DNA from: Oscillospiraceae bacterium
GTDB taxonomy: Bacteria; Bacillota; Clostridia; Oscillospirales; Acutalibacteraceae
Assembly (NCBI GenBank): GCA_015065845.1
Contig: SVPQ01000003.1
Span: 62,001-126,000, forward strand
Direction of reading: 5' to 3'
DNA: 64,000 nucleotides
Made by a program: the position numbers and the translations under genes. Shown one piece after another: positions 4,456-60,129 of this stretch. Numbering within the stretch: the first letter of the stretch is position 1; every line of letters starts with the position of its first letter. The notes beneath the pieces are model-generated. The model did no database searches. It saw only the letters and a program-made list of their open reading frames with translations, and was not told where the DNA came from.

Positions 4456-5901
4456 TCAATTTGTTGTTTGCGTTGAATCCGCTGTTTTTCTTGCCACTAC
4501 CCACGCATTAGGCAAATATCTGCCTGTAGGCATATCAGTTGACGGTTCGTTTAAAATCTCGCCTTCGTAAGCTAAAACTGAAGACGAACCACCATCACAC
4601 GCACCTGCATTTACTGCACCATACTCTTCTAAAACATCGGCACAGTCTCCCATAGTAGCACCAAGAGAATAACCAACCTGTCTGCCATCCACTACAAAAA
4701 ACATAACAACGCCATTTTCTGCCTGACCGATTACAGAGCGTGGTTGAAGTCCCCAACCGGAAGAACCCTCAATAACTTTTTCACCATTTATAATAAGTGC
4801 AGGGTGATACTGAAAAGCGTCACGCATATTATGTTCTTCCCAGTCAGAAAACTCACCGACTACAAGGCGGTCGTCCTTGTCAAAACCCACTGTTATATAT
4901 TTAGAAGAATAGTATCCCCAGTATTCACCTTGCGACATACATTGTGCGGTAACTACACCACCGACACTCGTTCCGCCCGGGTCGTGGAAACCAGATGCAT
5001 TCATACCGATTACCGCATCTTCTTTTTCGAGGTAATCACAAATAAATTCGCCTCTCGAATTTTTATAATCTGTAGCAGCTATATAAACTCTTGAAGGGTC
5101 ATCAATTAATACAAGTCTGCCGACATAGTTCGAAGTTTTAACTTTTAAAACAACAATTCCCTGTTCAATATCGTTTATCAAAACTTCGTTACCGTGAGAA
5201 TCAGGTTCGCCGACAACAAGGTCTTTCTGACCTAAAATATCAGGTTTTTCTTCCTTTTTCAAATCCGTTTTACCTATATCAGTAATATCAACTTGCGCGT
5301 TCATTACTTCATCTATTAAATATTTCGGGAAGAAACAAGTTGCAAGCCATTTGTGCTGATCAGTTGTCATAGCAGTTTCAATCCATATATTACGCCATTT
5401 TGTGACAAACGGAATATTCCCGAAAATAACTACAGCATACATCGAAATAAATAACGCAATTGAAATTACACAAGCAGTAAGAACTTTAATGAGTTTATTT
5501 GTCTTTGCTTCTTTTTCCTTTTCTTTTCGCTCGTTTTGTATTTTCTCAACTGTAGCAGTTGTATTTCTACGAGCAGGTGATGCGTTTTTTTGTTGCGGTC
5601 TGTTATTATTCACACTACGGTTTTCAGTAACAGATGAAGTATTTCTTTGCGCACTTCTCGTCTGAGTTACTTTTTCAGGTGAAGGTCTTGCGTTACTCGC
5701 AGGAGTTCTTCCGGACACAGTACGGTTATTTATAATCTGCCTGTTAGCATTCTGCAAAGAGTCTTTATCTTCATTAAAAGCATTACCGCCGAGATTCTGA
5801 ACATTTCTCGCTCTTCTGGCTTCAAAAGAATTGTTTACTAATTTCTCCGCCTGAAATTCTTCTTCACCATCAATACCTACCATAACAACACCACCTTTCA
5901 A
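4456..5901 (-). CDS. Phosphodiester glycosidase (NAGPA-like) family, membrane anchored
   Basis: TM near residue 145; C-terminal motifs MNASGFHDPGG, RSVIGQAENG, CDGGSSS characteristic of the family. Confidence 0.75.
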   Translation of the reverse strand: MKGGVVMVGIDGEEEFQAEKLVNNSFEARRARNVQNLGGNAFNEDKDSLQNANRQIINNRTVSGRTPASNARPSPEKVTQTRSAQRNTSSVTENRSVNNNRPQQKNASPARRNTTATVEKIQNERKEKEKEAKTNKLIKVLTACVISIALFISMYAVVIFGNIPFVTKWRNIWIETAMTTDQHKWLATCFFPKYLIDEVMNAQVDITDIGKTDLKKEEKPDILGQKDLVVGEPDSHGNEVLINDIEQGIVVLKVKTSNYVGRLVLIDDPSRVYIAATDYKNSRGEFICDYLEKEDAVIGMNASGFHDPGGTSVGGVVTAQCMSQGEYWGYYSSKYITVGFDKDDRLVVGEFSDWEEHNMRDAFQYHPALIINGEKVIEGSSGWGLQPRSVIGQAENGVVMFFVVDGRQVGYSLGATMGDCADVLEEYGAVNAGACDGGSSSVLAYEGEILNEPSTDMPTGRYLPNAWVVARKTADSTQTTN

Positions 5902-10968: not shown

Positions 10969-11115
10969 GGAACCAGGAATCAGGAACCAGGAACTAGTTG
11001 AATTTTAAAATAAAATGCATTCTATCATTTAAAGTTCTTCGTAAACTAAATATGATAGAATGCATTAATTTTCATTCAACCTAGTTCCTAATTTCTAATT
11101 CCTAGTTCCTGATTT
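10969..11115. repeat. Heptamer-array palindromic element (GGAAYYA arms)
   Basis: Left arm GGAACCA GGAATCA GGAACCA GGAACTA; right arm is the inverted complement; core hairpin AATGCATTCTATCATTT...ATGATAGAATGCATT at 11014-11066. Confidence 0.85.
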
Positions 11116-23408: not shown

Positions 23409-23577
23409 TTCGGAATGCGTAATTCGGAATTCGGAATTATAATTAAATATGGATAAAAACAACTACATTCTCTCATTTATGATTAAACCAAAAATGAAAG
23501 AATGTAGTTGTTTTTATTATATTAAAATCGCGTCGCAGACCCTTCAATTCCGAATTACGCATTACGCATTCCGAATT
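23409..23577. repeat. Heptamer-array palindromic element (TTCGGAA/TGCGTAA arms)
   Basis: TTCGGAA TGCGTAA TTCGGAA TTCGGAA; central 24-bp-arm hairpin 23455-23515; inverted array 23546-23577. Confidence 0.85.
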
Positions 23578-47367: not shown

Positions 47368-47509
47368 GTCGGTGGTCAGTTGCTAGTATGGCTAGTGTGG
47401 CTAGTTGCTAGTATGTGAATAAAAATAGTTTATCCTATCATTTAAAGTTAGTATCAACTGAAAATGATAGGATTTTTTTATTATAATACTACTAGCCACA
47501 CTATCCGCT
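47356..47509. repeat. Heptamer-array palindromic element (TGCTAGT / GTGGCTAGT arms)
   Basis: Left array overlaps the preceding stop codon; core ATCCTATCATTT...AAATGATAGGAT 47432-47473; TAGTGTGGCTAGT repeated inverted on the right. Confidence 0.85.
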
Positions 47510-57885: not shown

Positions 57886-59106
57886 ATGGATATTCTCGAA
57901 GCAAAACAAATAGTTATTAAAGCTGGTCACGAATTATTAAAAGCAGGGCTTATTGTGCGTACATGGGGTAATATCAGTTGCAGGGTAAGTGACACACAGT
58001 TTGTCATTACACCAAGCGGCAGAGCTTATGAAGATTTGACACCAGATGATATTGTTCTCGTTAATATTTCTGACCTTTCTTATGAGGGTGAAGTTAAACC
58101 ATCTTCTGAAAAAGGTATTCACGCATCTTGTTATGAGTTAAGACCTGACTGTAATTTTGTTATTCATACACATCAGGCAAATGCTTCTATTGTAAGTGCT
58201 TTAGGATACGATATAAATTCGCTTACAGAAGAACATTCAGCTATCATCGGTAGCGATGTTCCTTGCGCTAGTTATGGTCTTCCCGGTACCGGAAAATTAA
58301 GACAGGGCGTTATTGATGCACTTAATCGTTCAAAGTCAAAAGCAATTATTTTGGCACACCACGGTGCAGTTTGTGTAGGTACTGACTATGATGATGCATT
58401 TAAAGTAGCAAGTACTTTAGAAGATGTTTGTGAAAAATATATTGCTGACCGTTGCAGTGAAGTTTCTGGCAAAGCAGTTGGCACTCTTTTAAGTGTTAAA
58501 GATTATATTGCCGGTGTATTTACATCTGATTCAAATTACAAAGCAGAAAAAGAATTTGCTCCGTTTGACAGTGAAAGAAACGGCGACACTATGAGCATTT
58601 TTGCAGAAGACAAAGACCCTGTAAAAATCGATATTAAATCTGGTGCTTTAGTCGGTGGCGGAGAAATCCCTGAAAATGCAGATTTACACCTTGCTATTTA
58701 TAAAAAGCGAGAAGATGTAAACTTCATTCATCACTCTCACAATGAATATGTTAAAGCAATTTCAAAACAAGGTAAAAAGATGAAACCTCTTCTTGATGAC
58801 TTTGCTCAGCTCATTGGTCCAACAGTTAAATGTGCAATTTTCGATACAAATTCAACATTAAAATCCGCTAAAAAAGTTACAAAAGCACTCGGCAATAAAA
58901 ATGCAGTTCTTATTAAAGATAATGGTGCTATTTGCGTAGCAGGTACAAAATATGACGCAGAAGCAATCGAAATTGTTATGGATAAGGGTTGCAAAACTTT
59001 AGTTGGTGCAAATCTTTACAGTGGTGTTAAAACAATAAACGCAATTGAAGCAAATCTTATGAGAATTATTTATAAGATGAAATATTCTAAAAAAGCAGGG
59101 AAGTAA
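57886..59106 (+). CDS. Class II aldolase/adducin family, two tandem domains
   Basis: RTWGNISCRVSDTQFVITPSG, FVIHTHQANASIV, LAHHGAVCVG; second copy IHHSHNEYVKAI, LIKDNGAICVAG. Confidence 0.85.
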   Translation: MDILEAKQIVIKAGHELLKAGLIVRTWGNISCRVSDTQFVITPSGRAYEDLTPDDIVLVNISDLSYEGEVKPSSEKGIHASCYELRPDCNFVIHTHQANASIVSALGYDINSLTEEHSAIIGSDVPCASYGLPGTGKLRQGVIDALNRSKSKAIILAHHGAVCVGTDYDDAFKVASTLEDVCEKYIADRCSEVSGKAVGTLLSVKDYIAGVFTSDSNYKAEKEFAPFDSERNGDTMSIFAEDKDPVKIDIKSGALVGGGEIPENADLHLAIYKKREDVNFIHHSHNEYVKAISKQGKKMKPLLDDFAQLIGPTVKCAIFDTNSTLKSAKKVTKALGNKNAVLIKDNGAICVAGTKYDAEAIEIVMDKGCKTLVGANLYSGVKTINAIEANLMRIIYKMKYSKKAGK

Positions 59107-59135
59107 AAAATGGTCGCTTACGCGACCATTTTTTA
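59105..59135 (+). terminator. Rho-independent terminator
   Basis: AAAAAATGGTCGC-TTAC-GCGACCATTTTTT. Confidence 0.8.
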
Positions 59136-59262
59136 ATGCAAAATTCAAAATGCAAAATGCAGAATTTCGGAAACGCTTCGCGTTTGATTATAATTATAAG
59201 TGAACAGAAACAAAAATATCCTATCATTTTTCAGTTTTTAACTAAAAATGATAGGATATCTA

Positions 59263-59502
59263 TTACTTTGAAAGCTCTTCAAAAGTGATATTAAAAACTC
59301 GTGTAAAAGCTTTTATCTCAATATCAGTAACAAATCTTTTACCACATTCTATTCGTTGTATTGCATTTTTATCTATATCAAGACCTACTAATTGCAATTT
59401 GTCTGCAAGTTCTCTTTGAGATATTTTCATTTTATTACGATAGAAAGCAATATTTTTACCACAAATGTTATTTAAACCATCTTGAGTTTTATTTATGAAC
59501 AT
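59263..59502 (-). CDS. XRE-type HTH regulator
   Basis: CGKNIAFYRNKMKISQRELADKLQLVGLDIDKNAIQRIECGKRFVTDIEIKAFTRVF; ATG 59502 after AAAGGATGG. Confidence 0.85.
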   Translation of the reverse strand: MFINKTQDGLNNICGKNIAFYRNKMKISQRELADKLQLVGLDIDKNAIQRIECGKRFVTDIEIKAFTRVFNITFEELSK

Positions 59503-59514
59503 ATAACCATCCTT

Positions 59515-59588
59515 TTGACATTTAGTGCTTGTCAACAAAAAGATTATATGTTATTATTTAGATGTTATTGACACTCACTAAATGTCAA
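59515..59588. promoter_or_regulatory. Paired operator candidates TTGACA-N9-TGTCAA
   Basis: 59515-59535 TTGACATTTAGTGCTTGTCAA; 59568-59588 TTGACACTCACTAAATGTCAA (inverse TTGACATTTAGTGAGTGTCAA). Confidence 0.7.
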
Positions 59589-59708
59589 TATATGTAAAAT
59601 TAGATAAAGTAGTAAAATTATGTTTTTTACGAATAAGGTTTGCTTTTAAATTCAGCTGTTTTTATACCCATATTATGAAAATGTGATTACTTTAAGAGGA
59701 GAATATAG

Positions 59709-59960
59709 ATGAACATATTTGAGATTTATTATAATGCAGTTGCAAATAGTTACGATACCGACCTTGATGGTGCAAAAGAAATCATTGAAAAATTTATTAA
59801 AGAACTGAAAAAAGAATTAGACGAGTCCGATGACGAAAAAGTAAAAACTTTGTGGTATGAAGAATTCGCGGGTAAAGAATACCCCGATGCAGAAGAATTT
59901 CTCGCAACAATTTTTATGTTTGGTAAAAACCCATTTATACCCAAAAAGAGAAATGAATAA
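59709..59960 (+). CDS. Small acidic protein (83 aa), unknown
   Basis: aagaggag RBS; MNIFEIYYNAVANSYDTDLDGAKEIIEKFIKELKKELDESDDEK... Confidence 0.65.
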   Translation: MNIFEIYYNAVANSYDTDLDGAKEIIEKFIKELKKELDESDDEKVKTLWYEEFAGKEYPDAEEFLATIFMFGKNPFIPKKRNE

Positions 59961-60096
59961 AATAACACAAAAAACATCCTATCATTTAGGTTTACAAAAA
60001 ACTTTAAATGATAGGATGAACTTATTTTATTGAATTGTAATTACAATCAAACGCGAAGCGTTTCCGAAATTCTGCATTTTGCATTTTGCATTCTGC

Positions 60097-60129
60097 ATTC
60101 AGTAAAAAGGTTTTACCTTTTTACTGAAT
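60097..60129. repeat. 33-bp perfect palindrome across the stop codon of the surface-protein gene
   Basis: ATTCAGTAAAAAGGT-TTT-ACCTTTTTACTGAAT. Confidence 0.85.

Follow-up and report, generated by a model that had tools for sequence, protein, structure and literature searches.

A dispersed terminator-like hairpin as a probable site where small regulator cassettes enter, are exchanged and are lost in an Oscillospiraceae bacterium and its closest relatives

Between an aldolase gene and an FN3 gene of this Oscillospiraceae bacterium, two small genes are enclosed by hairpins and inverted arrays, which raises the question of how they came to be there and whether the whole moves as a unit. The window, by which we mean the entire stretch of 64,000 nucleotides analysed, is G000:C27:62001-126000, from a genome of 2.18 Mb in 51 contigs that is 82% complete. 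An initial annotation had described the composite as a gene-carrying member of a MITE-like family bounded by a perfect inverted repeat of 44 bp. That repeat was confirmed: the arm at 59146-59189 matches the one at 60045-60088 exactly in reverse complement, and the longest perfect inverted match among 200 dinucleotide shuffles of the region reached only 18. Both arms can be extended to 75 nt at 89% (59135-59209 and 60025-60099).

On the aldolase side the host flank ends in the intrinsic terminator of that gene (inverted repeat I12, 14 bp perfect; 59104-59135, plus strand), and a similar GGTCGC-GAAA-GCGACC terminator is present in the related genomes G001 and G011. It is followed by the left degenerate heptamer array with a mini-stem (CGGAAACGCTTCGCGTTTGATTATAATTA; 59135-59209, plus strand), common to G001 and by that comparison probably pre-existing, and by the left TCCTATCATTT hairpin with its 16-bp stem (59216-59259), which resembles a bidirectional terminator. 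Directly abutting this hairpin is the stop codon of an XRE/HTH_3 regulator gene on the minus strand (59263-59502; 79 aa from ATG, HTH_3 2e-6), for which a TTG at 59538 is an alternative start giving 91 aa and which has homologs at 86-90% in G001, G011 and G021. Two putative operators, both TTGACA..TGTCAA-type inverted repeats, lie at 59515-59538, where the first spans the divergent promoter region, and at 59565-59588; in G001:C76 and G001:C32 the operator still accompanies the XRE homolog, and the regulator may well control the divergent promoters. ORF83, an acidic orphan protein of 83 aa with a predicted four-helix fold, is encoded divergently on the plus strand (59709-59960). About 15 bp past its stop stands the right TCCTATCATTT hairpin with a 14-bp stem (59975-60018), then the right inverted heptamer array with its mini-stem (60025-60099, plus strand), a side that aligns in G021 and partly in G011, and finally inverted repeat I11 of the host flank, a terminator candidate at the 3' end of the FN3 gene (60097-60129, minus strand; 15 bp perfect arms, 3-nt loop). 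Hairpins with stems of 14-16 bp just inside the arms, and between the arms the regulator, paired operator and 83-aa frame, are thus present as annotated. An Rfam search of the window returned nothing beyond two tRNAs. The smaller copies that had been claimed elsewhere in the window are indeed without genes, but their array units differ from the arms: they are a solo hairpin of the TTCTATCATTT variant with AGGAACT-type arrays (11020-11060), a degenerate one with AATTCGG-type arrays (23468-23502) and one with CTAGTGTGG-type arrays (47433-47472).

These hairpins belong to a family with a narrow distribution. The pattern TCCTATCATTT-N3..30-AAATGATAGGA gave 33 matches in the G000 genome and 0 in a reversed-pattern control. 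The core CTATCATTT..AAATGATAG occurs in 50 copies in G000, 60 in G001, 99 in G011, 50 in G018, 45 in G021 and 11 in G015; it was absent from the other 15 congeners searched, with 0 matches for the reversed pattern in the genus, and a search of the wider family and order (126 genomes) gave one match, which looks like chance. The six hairpin-bearing species are the closest relatives (LysRS 97-99% identical, others 79-90%). No match to the hairpin was found in viral contigs, and literature searches returned no description of this hairpin repeat. Among 116 copies from several species, the stem is preserved through paired changes at its foot, where pair 1 was TA in 57, CG in 52 and AT in 5, and was paired in 114, whereas CTATCATTT is nearly invariant, a conservation that is partly biased since the set was collected with a CTATCATTT-based pattern. 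Between loci, perfect identity of the hairpins is limited to about 11 bases in each arm. At two pairs of orthologous solo sites (L066:7351 and L162:7721; L069:2068 and L171:5673) we observed another hairpin subtype or an inverted loop, so that the hairpin itself is replaced or flipped there.

The copies are flanked by degenerate arrays of several types, many with 7-nt units, and in none of 74 hairpins was the right array of the same element the best match for the left one. The window arms are therefore a common array type and not a private pair. Degenerate short-unit arrays with mini-stems (such as GGGACCTGCGGTCGGCAATTATAAT or GGGTCTGCGACGC) also occur in congeners that have no TCCTATCATTT hairpin (for example L127, L128, L132, L124), and this genus-wide set looks like a second, older repeat family. 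Two further dispersed repeats were seen at hairpin sites: TTCTTCGTAGGGGATGAGC...CGACAACGCGTTGTTTAAT, directly adjoining several hairpins (L047:2665, L048:2438, L074:2105), and an inverted repeat ACTCCCACTA..GTAGTGGGAGT with an inner AGGGGC..ACCTGTGGT.GCCC (L060:3800-3860, L057:770-830).

The position of the hairpins relative to genes points to what they may do. By intergenic gap, the G000 hairpins fall into 24 convergent, 21 co-directional and 0 divergent cases, and those in a G011 sample of 360 kb out of 2.2 Mb into 16, 9 and 0, compared with 25, 90 and 32 for all gaps of G011; none of the hairpins in these two counts lies within a gene. At least 7 T were found in the 12 nt past the stem on one strand in 66 of 73 hairpins, and T-tracts on both strands (at least 6 T) in 53 of the 73. 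One orthologous gene end carries a solo element in G000 (L079) and an ordinary terminator in G011 (L157). The hairpin stands only 3' of genes and is flanked by T-tracts to either side, so that it looks like a bidirectional intrinsic terminator, with termination activity predicted from these features.

Loci where the aldolase 3' side lacks the genes, which the initial annotation had proposed to seek, were found in G011, G021 and G001: each has an array, one hairpin and an array, and no genes. BLAST alignment of the window with G001 is collinear across the left array and left hairpin and ends no more than 2 bp from the hairpin end, and alignment with G021 on the FN3 side starts 15 bp inside the right hairpin and is collinear outward. 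Both window hairpins align to the single hairpin of the relatives, and by this alignment one ancestral hairpin would correspond to both. Since the relatives are collinear through the array and the single hairpin, arrays and hairpin appear to have pre-existed, and the genes and a second hairpin to have been added there. The site has a solo and an occupied state, the latter known here from one genome, G000, and the window composite is, as had been suggested, a gene-bearing version of a dispersed repeat.

The same hairpin was also sought around other cargo, and cassettes were found at further sites. Between LysRS and GNAT, G018 and G021 have a solo hairpin and G000, G001 and G011 have cassettes; both sides of the G018 locus align with G000, with an overlap of 84 bp that includes the hairpin. 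At ackA, G018 has a solo hairpin and G000, G001 and G011 have cassettes, those of G000 and G011 being about 89% identical over 571 bp; no ackA hairpin was found in G015 or the outgroups inspected. The inserted tract at ackA starts immediately past the hairpin in G000 and G011, but no hairpin closes it at the far end, where the last hairpin is followed by one more gene (DUF3267 or ORF132). Between rimP and UPF0210, G000 and G021 have common flanks up to the hairpins, both breakpoints fall in hairpins, and the contents differ (XRE74/217aa/91aa in G000, Cys74/XRE80 in G021), which shows exchanged contents with junctions at the hairpins. All genomes are drafts, mostly MAGs, in which short repeats can mislead assembly; a G001 contig ends inside the second ackA hairpin (end of L186), as expected if the repeat disturbs assembly.

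A tree of the concatenated aldolase, LysRS and AckA genes gave (G015,(G011,(G001,(G000,(G018,G021))))) with support of 94-100%. Placed on this tree, G000 would have gained the aldolase cassette, and losses would explain the solo states of G018 and G021 at LysRS and of G018 at ackA, so that acquisition of cassettes and reversion to a solo hairpin both appear to be needed, on branches that are short and where exchange between strains could blur such calls.

Cassettes have a common layout, with small genes diverging from a common centre and outer stops often 5-25 bp from a hairpin. They contain XRE79 with its operator, XRE66, XRE74, RHH-like proteins (called by eye, with no confident Pfam match), Cys-rich proteins of 63-74 aa, ORF83, a VbhA-like antitoxin and PIN7. 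Single modules are spread over several loci. XRE79 with its operator is about 82% identical in DNA among the window, G001:C76 and G001:C32, and in four species the XRE79 module adjoins hairpins, at four loci that are unrelated to each other; the RHH56 module stands at ackA in G000, G001 and G011 and at gdhA in G018 and G021, there with a hairpin on one side. Bounding hairpins whose orientation can be read are direct repeats, 38 of 39 positions being identical at G000 ackA and a 43-nt pair being identical in G001:C50; the orientation of the two window hairpins is unreadable from sequence. Hairpin pairs were partly found through the hairpin search, which makes any enrichment around cassettes a biased figure; the loci of ORF83 and XRE79 came from protein searches only.

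ORF83 has many invariant residues and occurs only in G000, G001, G011 and G018; several of its loci (dacA, secA, C14) lack such a hairpin pair. In GTDB r220 genome contigs it was found in only three MAGs, all of hairpin-bearing species of the genus, and the named relatives that carry it are Oscillospiraceae/Clostridia MAGs, one from sheep rectum. Searches of viral contigs, phages and plasmids gave no match, and Pfam, NCBIfam, PHROGs and PADLOC nothing convincing. Its predicted four-helix model is confident (pLDDT 91) and has no match in the PDB with E<=0.001. Among other cargo, the VbhA-like antitoxin (PF18495, E 1e-8) lies in a hairpin-bounded cassette (L160:2400-2564) with no toxin partner recognised alongside; as to toxin-antitoxin content, this protein and PIN7, each in some cassettes, were all that was seen. 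The insert holding the PIN7 (NYN-like) gene carries a second copy of about 60 bp from the 3' end of XRE66 (L060:3560-3620, 4637-4696), and the L060 hairpin at 4714 matches G011 L171:11377 exactly in reverse complement.

We consider it likely that a dispersed, probably mobile hairpin of bidirectional-terminator type doubles as the junction at which small regulator cassettes are gained, exchanged and lost. In a cassette, two short operons would diverge from an operator region common to both, and each would have its stop just before a hairpin; a site would toggle between X-hairpin-Y and X-hairpin-genes-hairpin-Y by recombination within the hairpin and the sequence directly adjoining it. In the case of the window, the XRE/ORF83 cassette would have entered a solo array-hairpin-array that stood behind the aldolase gene and is of the type kept in three sister species. 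The comparisons support recombination at the hairpin as the step of gain, exchange and loss, and either RecA-type recombination among the repeats or a recombinase supplied in trans could carry it out. RecA-type recombination would fit well with loss between direct copies that are nearly identical, and less well with entry at new loci, where each arm offers about 11 perfect bases; the near-fixed CTATCATTT would make sense if a recombinase acted in trans. We tentatively raise the further idea of an integrase-free chromosomal cassette system in which a sequence-specific recombinase in trans attaches at the terminator hairpin, and self-contained regulator modules insert, exchange and leave at any terminator of the family. 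No recombinase tied to the hairpin was found among the integron integrases (22 genomes) and Y1 transposases searched.

The pattern could instead be nothing more than ordinary homologous exchange, in which strains swap entire intergenic regions and hairpins mark the edges merely as gene-end terminators that take no part in recombination, an account that is possible but that we hold to be doubtful. The hairpins do stand exactly at gene 3' ends, and the ackA cassettes of G000, G011 and G001 look vertically kept, as the G000 and G011 identity there illustrates. Against such exchange speak the second hairpin and the homology through a single hairpin from both sides, as in the LysRS overlap between G000 and G018, the occurrence of the same module between hairpins at unrelated loci, and the conservation of CTATCATTT far beyond the needs of termination. 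The MITE-like, arm-to-arm transposon of the initial annotation, a non-autonomous element with inverted heptamer arrays as its ends whose gene version is a cargo copy moved whole by a transposase in trans, now seems quite unlikely. It draws on the 44-bp perfect inverted arms, on arrays outside the G000 ackA cargo that are likewise inverted copies, and on solo elements present or absent at orthologous sites (L079 and L157). Terminal inverted repeats would move together with what they enclose, but the gene-less relatives already have arrays and hairpin at the site; the array units also vary between loci and between orthologous sites, an element's own arms are not best partners, and clearly oriented hairpin pairs are direct. 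No partner transposase was found; by family, Y1_Tnp was searched, and its loci are not hairpin-flanked.

That a RAYT transposase spreads a repeat of REP/REPIN type, two copies of which now and then trap genes between them, is improbable, though there are likenesses: as in REP/REPIN families (PMC3116915), these are short extragenic palindromes in tens of copies, specific to a species group, dispersed (11-99 copies) and never within genes, and Y1 transposases of about 250 aa are present in G011 and G018. However, the hairpin-rich G000 and G021 (both about 82% complete) gave no Y1 match, similar Y1 genes occur in the hairpin-less G020 and G006, and the Y1 loci inspected (L209, L210) have no such hairpin alongside. 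Here, unlike in the REP/REPIN and RAYT systems, the hairpins are single terminators or flank genes, and no RAYT stands beside them. We regard as very unlikely the reading of the hairpins as attC sites for a distant tyrosine recombinase, which would make these integron-like cassettes without a local integrase. Like integron cassettes and CALIN (PMC9024848), small genes in variable order lie between structured, directly repeated sites, and contents are gained, exchanged and lost, down to one hairpin. The differences are that no attC R/L boxes (RYYYAAC / GTTRRRY pair in 0 of 78 hairpins) and no IntI were found, integron integrase TIGR02249 being above cut-off in 0 of 22 genomes (G000 82% complete), that the sites are scattered over the chromosome, that the cassettes seem to have divergent promoters of their own, and that the boundary is also terminator-like.

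The hairpin cassettes resemble integrons, morons and REPs but fail a tested defining feature of integrons, REPIN/RAYT and MITEs. Phage morons (PMC6316719) are whole transcription units that have joined phage genomes, and the cassettes are comparable as self-contained small units, with predicted promoter activity, added between conserved genes, to which their architecture and the gene-less sites conform; unlike morons they are chromosomal, and they are bounded by, and exchanged at, one dispersed hairpin family. For IS elements reported to target REP palindromes (PMC1525189), a palindromic repeat is likewise the landing site; the insert here differs in consisting of regulator genes without a transposase and ending in another hairpin copy. 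The heptamer repeats of cyanobacteria and Beggiatoaceae (PMC4679880) are also intergenic arrays of short 7-nt units for which rearrangement is suggested, but they are direct repeats, whereas here several degenerate units form inverted arrays around a terminator-like hairpin.

If the preferred reading of the hairpin as a cassette junction is true, terminators would serve as docking points for accessory genes besides stopping transcription, and a simple rule, to enter behind a gene and bring one's own stop, would spread small regulators without disturbing the neighbours. It would explain how orphan XRE and RHH modules change place between sister species, and the CTATCATTT stem would provide a defined sequence with which to seek a recombinase. 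In this small group of gut bacteria, apparently of ruminants, the hairpin would then mark where small regulator-gene pairs were gained, swapped and lost between species.
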